Both the position numbers and the translations under genes were made by a program. This document shows, piece after piece, positions 42,870 through 45,944 of a stretch of 64,000 nucleotides of DNA. The DNA is from Megasphaera paucivorans (GTDB lineage: Bacteria > Bacillota > Negativicutes > Veillonellales > Megasphaeraceae). The number at the start of each line of letters is the position of its first letter. Within the stretch, counting starts at the first letter, position 1. A model generated the notes under the pieces. It made no database searches, was not told the DNA's origin, and worked only from the letters and a program-made list of their open reading frames with translations. The stretch is from the NCBI RefSeq assembly GCF_900103535.1, contig NZ_FNHQ01000012.1:1-64000 (forward strand). Reading direction: 5' to 3'.

Positions 42870-42914
42870 AGTATATACAACAACGCATTGTTTTGTCAAT
42901 GATAAACAATATCA
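42870..42914 (-). promoter_or_regulatory. feoA promoter with Fur-like box
   Basis: Minus strand TTGACA (42894-42899), 18-base spacer, TATACT (42870-42875). TGATAAACAATATCA (42900-42914), a 7-1-7 Fur-like dyad two bases off TGATAAT-N-ATTATCA, abuts the -35. Confidence 0.65.
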
Positions 42915-44411: not shown

Positions 44412-44464
44412 ATTCTATCTTATTTGATAATAATTGTCAATATCAATATTGATATAAATTATCA
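44412..44464 (-). promoter_or_regulatory. Promoter with two Fur-like boxes before the DUF2325 gene
   Basis: Minus strand TTGACA (44435-44440), 17-base spacer, TAGAAT (44412-44417). TGATAATAATTGTCA (44425-44439), one base from the 7-1-7 Fur consensus, covers the -35; a second, TGATATAAATTATCA (44450-44464), lies upstream, with the palindrome TATCAATATTGATA (44441-44454) between. Confidence 0.7.
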
Positions 44465-44542: not shown

Positions 44543-44599
44543 TTTCCTATATATATTATGATTATAATTGAAAATTATAATCATAATATATATAGGAAA
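44543..44599. repeat. 27-bp perfect AT-rich inverted repeat
   Basis: Arms 44543-44569 and 44573-44599 pair without mismatch around a GAA centre; almost all A/T. It lies between the porin terminator and the DUF2325 promoter. May be a second terminator, a protein-binding cruciform or the relic of a small mobile element. Confidence 0.75.
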
Positions 44600-44609
44600 C
44601 TATACGTTG

Positions 44610-44663: not shown

Positions 44664-45716
44664 CTAAAAAGAATGTGTAATAGTCGCTTCAATTTTTGTA
44701 TTATGAGAACCGCCGGCAGTATCATCGGCATCACGCAGCGTCTTCTGATCTTTATAGACAACTTCAACACTGTCATTTTTAGTTAATTGATGTGTAATTC
44801 CGTAATAAAAACCACGATTATTATTATCAAAATCACTTTGTTGTCCCATATCTGCATAGGGTTCTACCCGGAATGCTGTAACATATACTGCTGTTTTATC
44901 ATTAAAGGCATAGTTCCAAGTCACGGCGTATGCTTTATTATCTTTATCCGCATTTGATTTAGCTAATTCTGCTGTAAACGTACTTTTTTTGAATTTATAC
45001 GCAGCATCTACAGCACCATTTGTTGTATTTTGCCCAGAATCATCAGCATATACGTACCGTCCTAATGTAGCACCTACCTGCATTCGTTTATTTACATCAT
45101 AGGTACCATGTATTGCATATAAATGATTATCGGCAGCCCCATCATTATCCTCCTGCGCAGCAACACCAGTTAAAGCAATATTCCCCATATTTCCTTCCAC
45201 TGTCAGTCCATCAACAAAATTACGGATGCCAATATTAGTATCTGAACGGCTATATAATAAAGCAGTCGCTCCAATTGTCAAATCCTGTCTCCCGAGTTTA
45301 TAAGAAAAATCTCCTTTTTTATACGTTAATCCAAACATATCTATTGCAATAACACCTTTTTTATTCACATCATAGGCATCGGTATTAAAATCACCTAAAC
45401 TTGGCTGGGTAGCATATTGAGCACCCAATCGGGCATATAGAGAAAATCCATGAGATAACTGTTTTTCAGCATTCAAGCGGAAACTGTACATTAATCCATC
45501 TATAGCAGGAGAATTCTCCATTGTATCGCGTTCATATTTTATAGAAACATCACCTGACCATGTTAATTCTTCCGGAGTCTTTTTTTCTTCCGTACCTGCT
45601 ATCCCAACATCAGTCGGCAAAACAGCAGCTGCTGCAATTGCTTCATTATCTGTTGCAAAAACAGGCGCACAAAGTATCCCTAAGCTTATAACAGTACCCA
45701 TCATAATTTTTTTCAT
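44664..45716 (-). CDS. Outer-membrane porin-like beta-barrel protein
   Basis: 350 residues with a signal peptide (MKKIMMGTVISLGILCAPVFA, cut before TDNE), an alternating polar/hydrophobic beta-strand pattern (LTWSGDVSIKYERD, FRLNAEKQLSHGFSLYARLGAQY, FSYKLGRQDLTIGATALLY, VDAAYKFKKSTFTAELAKS) and a C-terminal ITHSF, the terminal phenylalanine recognised by the BAM machinery. No SLH domain, unlike many Negativicutes porins. It shows that the organism has an outer membrane. A Fur-boxed promoter and a short ORF lie upstream, so it may import iron or other metals (inference). Confidence 0.85.
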   Translation of the reverse strand: MKKIMMGTVISLGILCAPVFATDNEAIAAAAVLPTDVGIAGTEEKKTPEELTWSGDVSIKYERDTMENSPAIDGLMYSFRLNAEKQLSHGFSLYARLGAQYATQPSLGDFNTDAYDVNKKGVIAIDMFGLTYKKGDFSYKLGRQDLTIGATALLYSRSDTNIGIRNFVDGLTVEGNMGNIALTGVAAQEDNDGAADNHLYAIHGTYDVNKRMQVGATLGRYVYADDSGQNTTNGAVDAAYKFKKSTFTAELAKSNADKDNKAYAVTWNYAFNDKTAVYVTAFRVEPYADMGQQSDFDNNNRGFYYGITHQLTKNDSVEVVYKDQKTLRDADDTAGGSHNTKIEATITHSF

Positions 45717-45794
45717 TTCATTCTCCCTTTCAGTCAGATCGTCACTACCGATAAAATTTAAAATAAGTCCGTTGCTTCAAGTTATATCATCATT

Positions 45795-45872
45795 CTATGT
45801 GGTTCCCGTTTCACCCTTTCCCCATAAGCACTCCCCCGCAGCGCGTATTACAAAGCCTTTCTTTTTTAACAT
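45795..45872 (-). CDS. 25-residue ORF under a Fur-boxed promoter
   Basis: ATG 45872 is preceded at ideal distance by AAAGGAGG; the frame reads MLKKKGFVIRAAGE... and ends ...GETGTT, stop TAG at 45795-45797. It contains one Cys and one Trp (ECLWGKG). The promoter at 45916-45944 and a perfect Fur box lie just upstream, and the porin starts 78 bases downstream. The consensus binding site is the main evidence of translation; function unknown, possibly a small regulatory protein or leader peptide. Confidence 0.5.
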   Translation of the reverse strand: MLKKKGFVIRAAGECLWGKGETGTT

Positions 45873-45891
45873 GATCCTGCCTCCTTTAATA

Positions 45892-45944
45892 ATAATGATA
45901 ATCATTATAGATAAAATTATAAATGACTTTTATCGCAAAGTCAA
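45892..45944 (-). promoter_or_regulatory. Promoter with perfect Fur box (small ORF / porin)
   Basis: Minus strand TTGACT (45939-45944), 17-base spacer, TATAAT (45916-45921). ATAATGATAATCATTAT (45892-45908) is a perfect 8-1-8 palindrome matching the classical Fur box and covers the start-site region. Confidence 0.85.

Follow-up and report, generated by a model that had tools for sequence, protein, structure and literature searches.

A Candidate Upstream Open Reading Frame in the Leader of a Predicted Fur-Controlled Porin Gene in Megasphaera

Introduction

Why should an open frame of only 25 codons be preceded by a consensus promoter, a perfect Fur palindrome, and a strong ribosome-binding site, a short distance ahead of a porin gene? 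A sequence-only reading of this 64,000-nucleotide stretch of Megasphaera paucivorans DNA (the window) had proposed either an iron-starvation microprotein or a leader peptide that controls the porin. To address this question, we compared the locus with 17 genomes of the family, which include one genome of the same genus (a Megasphaera sp. MAG, G001; its locus L013 is the same as L016), and with a larger set of Negativicutes. The explanation that we favor, with a probability of about 0.52, is that the region forms the 5' leader of a porin mRNA repressed by Fur and carries a probably translated upstream open reading frame (uORF) without a conserved peptide; any action of this uORF would be in cis, through the loading of ribosomes. 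A leader feature is more likely than a new microprotein because the switch and the ribosome landing site are conserved and the peptide is not.

Results

The promoter, the perfect 8-1-8 Fur palindrome, the Shine-Dalgarno (SD) sequence, and the 25-codon frame 78 nt before the porin, all named in the sequence-only reading, were confirmed on the minus strand (Table 1). The -35 element TTGACT (45944-45939) and the -10 element TATAAT (45921-45916) are separated by a 17-nt spacer, and no other promoter-like site as strong as this lies in the interval from the upstream terminator region to the porin. The palindrome, which follows the -10 element directly, is exact over 17 bp (ATAATGAT-T-ATCATTAT, 45908-45892) and agrees with the classical Fur consensus at 17 of 19 positions. 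Under a first-order Markov model of the window, 0.07 Fur sites per 64 kb would be expected by chance at 16/19 and none at 17. Throughout the 2.9-Mb genome, this is the only copy of the palindrome with 0 mismatches, the next best having 2, and the same genome holds four matches to FUR-family genes over the cut-off.

TABLE 1 Positions of the leader and porin features in the window
Feature	Positions	Strand	Remarks
Sigma-70 promoter TTGACT-N17-TATAAT	45916..45944	-	11/12 consensus matches
Fur box ATAATGATTATCATTAT, perfect 8-1-8 palindrome	45892..45908		At the expected transcription start
Shine-Dalgarno sequence AAAGGAGG	45880..45887	-	7 nt 5' of the ATG; sequence and spacing kept in L013
uORF MLKKKGFVIRAAGECLWGKGETGTT, 25 codons	45795..45872	-	Open frame; start kept, peptide not conserved in L013; no family match
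Porin-proximal 5' UTR, 78 nt	45717..45794	-	144 nt shorter than that of G001
Outer-membrane porin, 350 aa, gene downstream of the uORF	44664..45716	-	Pfam Porin_4, E 3e-5

The gene upstream of the promoter encodes an EFR1-family ferredoxin and has its own terminator at 46156-46111. Between the uORF and the porin, the window contains neither a terminator nor a second sigma-70-like promoter, and transcription of the porin is therefore expected to start at the Fur promoter. As judged from these signals, Fur control of the porin appears well supported, with Fur predicted to bind at the box and the porin predicted to be co-transcribed with the uORF. The Porin_4 match itself is weak and falls slightly under the curated cut-off, but the protein shares about 45-58% identity with many Negativicutes porins and 87% with that of G001. 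Its closest relatives other than G001 (50-58%) belong outside this order of Negativicutes, and the 15 genomes of the sister genus contain no porin relative at E <= 1e-5 save one distant match (29%), which suggests either transfer of the porin into this genus or its loss in the sister genus. A plasmid search returned no match.

The genes downstream of the porin encode DUF2325, DUF3793, and flavodoxin proteins (Pfam) as well as FeoA and FeoB (named from sequence). Weaker Fur-like boxes (15/19) lie ahead of feoA (42895-42913) and ahead of the DUF2325-DUF3793-flavodoxin cluster (44426-44444), the latter overlapping a promoter (TTGACA-17-TAGAAT). Because such sites precede both DUF2325 and feoA, the region looks like an iron-response neighborhood, which suggests that DUF3793 and DUF2325 may be part of the iron response. 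The gap after the porin (44544-44600) contains a near-perfect AT-rich inverted repeat, TTTCCTATATATATTATGATTATAATT / AATTATAATCATAATATATATAGGAAA, with a further 15/19 Fur-like match.

The uORF runs from an ATG at 45872 to a TAG stop at 45797-45795, and the ATG of the porin stands at 45716. Its length is unremarkable, since a frame of at least 25 codons has a probability of 0.17 at this composition; what is remarkable is the initiation region. Elsewhere in the window, AGGAGG followed by a start codon marks real genes, save for a few chance sites that open frames of 3, 4, and 16 codons. Judging from this initiation region, the uORF is probably translated. The peptide matched no curated profile or known chain in Pfam, NCBIfam, or PDB and was not found in 60 relatives; matches in other genomes were weak (E 0.35-0.9), several of them containing stop codons, and were taken as chance because their E-values are near 1. 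A likeness of KKGFVIRAAGE to the N terminus of PqqD-like proteins was set aside: it gave no Pfam match at E <= 10 and is absent from L013.

To see how often such a signal set occurs, the exact Fur core followed by an SD and an ATG was sought in 380 Negativicutes genomes. Nine places were found, and the reversed control pattern gave none. Seven of the nine open real genes (five feoA, one methyltransferase, and one substrate-binding protein, named from their sequences and not by profile search), and only the window and G001 open a frame of 25-30 codons. More distant porins (L040, L042, and L065) carry a 16-17/19 Fur box at 45-65 nt upstream of the ATG but lack a short ORF. Regulation of such porins by Fur thus appears to be recurrent, and the uORF would be a peculiarity of this genus. 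At another porin homolog (L063, in G141), a Fur-like box of 15/19 lies about 240 nt upstream, and the long leader after it contains an orphan TAAGGAGG Shine-Dalgarno sequence, which has no ATG at the normal distance and an ATT 8 nt on; the arrangement may parallel that of the window, with ribosomes landing in the leader of a porin under Fur control.

Among the 17 family genomes, only G001 has both the close porin and the leader. Its promoter (L013, 2612-2640) also matches the consensus at 11 of 12 positions, its Fur box, SD, and start codon are kept, and the SD-to-ATG spacing is the same 7 nt. The block from the promoter to the SD is identical at 54 of 62 positions, and the porin-proximal end of the leader at 44 of its final 49; beyond the signals, the leader sequence is poorly conserved. 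For comparison, 81 of the 130 fourfold sites in the porin are identical (dS 0.49, dN 0.064). Searches with the leader DNA in sister genomes gave weak matches only, and those inspected were SD- or Fur-like or chance matches at unrelated genes. G001 additionally has a second, diverged porin copy at the end of a contig (C22; L019, 1-108), 53% identical over the first 36 residues, which sits behind MgtC-like and MgtA-like (ATPase) genes; its upstream 150 nt contain neither a Fur palindrome nor a uORF of this type. In the genome of the window, a single porin copy was found.

The frame that follows the shared start in G001 is different. It encodes MVKKNFGIKDAGIALSMYLWGKVGKGNRIK in 30 codons, and compared with it the uORF differs by a net 9 nt in frame and has its reading frame shifted by 1 nt after LWGK, near the C terminus. 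Aligned bases of the uORF are identical at 57 of 75 positions, about the same rate as in the AT-rich spacer upstream (131/161). In a neutral simulation of the two species with the same indels, between 23 and 82% of runs, according to the substitution rate assumed, gave a peptide score at least as high as that observed (P 0.23-0.82). On the basis of these identities and the simulation, the landing site appears to be kept while the peptide drifts, although such conservation tests are weak because only two genomes carry the leader. The MxKK start and a (C/Y)LWGK stretch are kept in both species, and dN/dS is about 0.3 over the 11 best-aligned uORF codons, a biased and tiny sample; these leave room for some constraint on the peptide.

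These comparisons bear most directly on the microprotein that had been proposed. A product acting in trans during iron starvation would suit the strong, conserved initiation region, the short basic peptide, and the MxKK and LWGK motifs shared by the two species, in a setting comparable to that of the small basic Fur-regulated FbpA/B/C of Bacillus. The peptide, however, is absent from the 60 relatives, and its L013 counterpart was found nowhere else in the family. Moreover, in the one relative with the Fur box retained, the start is kept but the peptide is frameshifted near its C terminus and no more similar than neutral drift would produce, and this one comparison counts against a conserved peptide. 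We therefore consider a microprotein the least probable of all the readings weighed here. What the analysis supports in the earlier interpretation is control by Fur and a strong initiation site in front of the porin; it does not support the microprotein.

The two leaders also differ in length. From the uORF stop to the porin, G001 has 222 nt, 144 more than the window, and an intrinsic terminator lies in this additional sequence (L013, 2900-2924; 10 bp, dG -13.8 kcal/mol, z -4.8), about 120 nt past the uORF stop and about 270 nt downstream of the Fur promoter. No promoter-like site follows this terminator in G001, and no terminator of its type occurs between the uORF and the porin in the window. 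A large deletion between CAACGG repeats distinguishes the two leaders, such that the window looks like a deletion product or G001 like the product of an insertion, a direction that two sequences alone do not polarize. The extra segment was considered as a repeated insertion element and rejected, as neither genome contains other copies. A structured RNA or riboswitch was likewise dismissed: Rfam gave only sub-threshold noise, mostly AT-rich hairpins, and the leaders fold like shuffled sequences.

The second proposal of the sequence-only reading, a leader that controls the porin, is possible mainly because of the G001 terminator, which lies between the ORF and the porin with no promoter-like site after it. 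Here, translation of the uORF would decide whether transcription or translation proceeds into the porin, adding a second layer over Fur, and an alternative pairing of the 5' arm of the terminator (-11.5 kcal/mol) could compete with it. Yet 9% of shuffles yield a pairing as good, no significant antiterminator was found, and the whole leaders of both the window and G001 fold no better than shuffles. The G001 terminator also lies about 120 nt beyond the uORF stop, the window lacks it altogether, its 78-nt gap exceeds what ordinary translational coupling would allow, and the uORF contains no codon run typical of attenuation. Such an attenuator is, in our judgment, decidedly unlikely.

The same terminator would also suit a small or dual-function RNA of the RyhB or FsrA kind, in which the Fur promoter makes a short iron-starvation transcript with a mini-ORF and loss of the terminator fused the window copy to the porin. 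The pairing of a Fur promoter with a downstream intrinsic terminator in G001 speaks for this, and RyhB itself reportedly encodes a peptide of 9 residues, RyhP (PMC5331693). This origin is nevertheless very improbable given that the terminator is missing in the window, no Rfam match came near threshold, and the leader is poorly kept outside its signals.

The chief rival to the favored reading is that the Fur promoter and initiation region are relics of an eroded first gene, for example a feoA-like one, whose start was left before the porin. At the seven other Negativicutes loci, these signals introduce a full gene, which is feoA in five of them; in G001 there is room for about 70 codons before the terminator, and the deletion between the CAACGG repeats could be read in the same way. 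Against it, the read-through frames of both leaders have no Pfam match, FeoA included, which led us to reject a FeoA relic in particular; no intact gene was found at this place in the family, and the SD and start are kept better than a relic would require. Overall, we regard a relic as unlikely.

Discussion

Our preferred reading, a porin leader with a uORF that would act through ribosome loading, may work as follows. With iron plentiful, Fe-Fur would occupy the palindrome over the transcription start and block transcription. With iron scarce, a leader of roughly 193 nt and the porin would be transcribed from the single promoter, and ribosomes would load at the strong SD, translate the 25-codon frame, and terminate 78 nt short of the porin; the porin has a ribosome-binding site of its own. 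On this view, the peptide would lack a conserved function. We infer any effect in cis from the signals: a ribosome loaded near the 5' end may shield the message from 5' decay, may set how much transcription and translation reach the porin, or, as G001 suggests, may interact with termination. Against simple read-through stands the leader terminator of G001, which this explanation does not account for there.

Among known systems, the region would work most like a bacterial uORF, and uof-fur of Escherichia coli is the nearest example related to iron. There, metallo-Fur represses uof-fur and uof is a site of post-transcriptional iron control (PMC11550727; PMC7466049). In both cases, the leader of a gene related to iron contains a short ORF that has an initiation site of its own. 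However, uof is translationally coupled to fur, whereas the gap here (78 nt, and 222 nt in L013) is too long for ordinary coupling; uof has an iron-sensitive UCA codon, which the present uORF lacks, and the downstream gene here is a porin. FbpA, FbpB, and FbpC of Bacillus subtilis are small basic peptides under Fur control (PMC7430163), but FbpB has 48 residues and a reported iron-sparing role with FsrA, whereas the frame described here is not conserved in sequence. RyhB/RyhP, a Fur-controlled dual-function RNA with a tiny ORF (PMC5331693), resembles the terminated leader of G001 but not that of the window, where the RNA is predicted to read into the porin gene. These two systems are analogues of the setting and not relatives.

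Two further comparisons concern the role of the ribosome. In Bacilli, 5' Shine-Dalgarno sequences can stabilize mRNA by protecting it from RNase J (reviewed in PMC3997798), and a strong ribosome-binding site near the 5' end could similarly protect a long untranslated leader, although here an ATG stands at the ideal distance. Short ORFs translated without purifying selection are pervasive in Mycobacterium tuberculosis (PMC9094748). The uORF is like them in being probably translated into a peptide without purifying selection, but its initiation signals are conserved and much stronger than spurious ones.

A bolder scheme, which we consider quite improbable, is a two-layer iron control of the porin in diderm Firmicutes, with Fur acting at initiation and peptide-independent translation of the uORF gating a leader terminator that is intact in G001 and reduced in the lineage of the window. 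If true, porin output would also read the translation state of the cell under iron starvation.

For annotation, the consequence is twofold: gene callers would miss the uORF, and a protein annotation for it would probably be a mistake. Because the landing site appears conserved and the peptide does not, the locus offers a clean test of how a translated leader ORF can be distinguished from a microprotein. Few Fur targets in Negativicutes were found in the literature searched, and the present analysis identifies a likely iron-starvation porin in this class.
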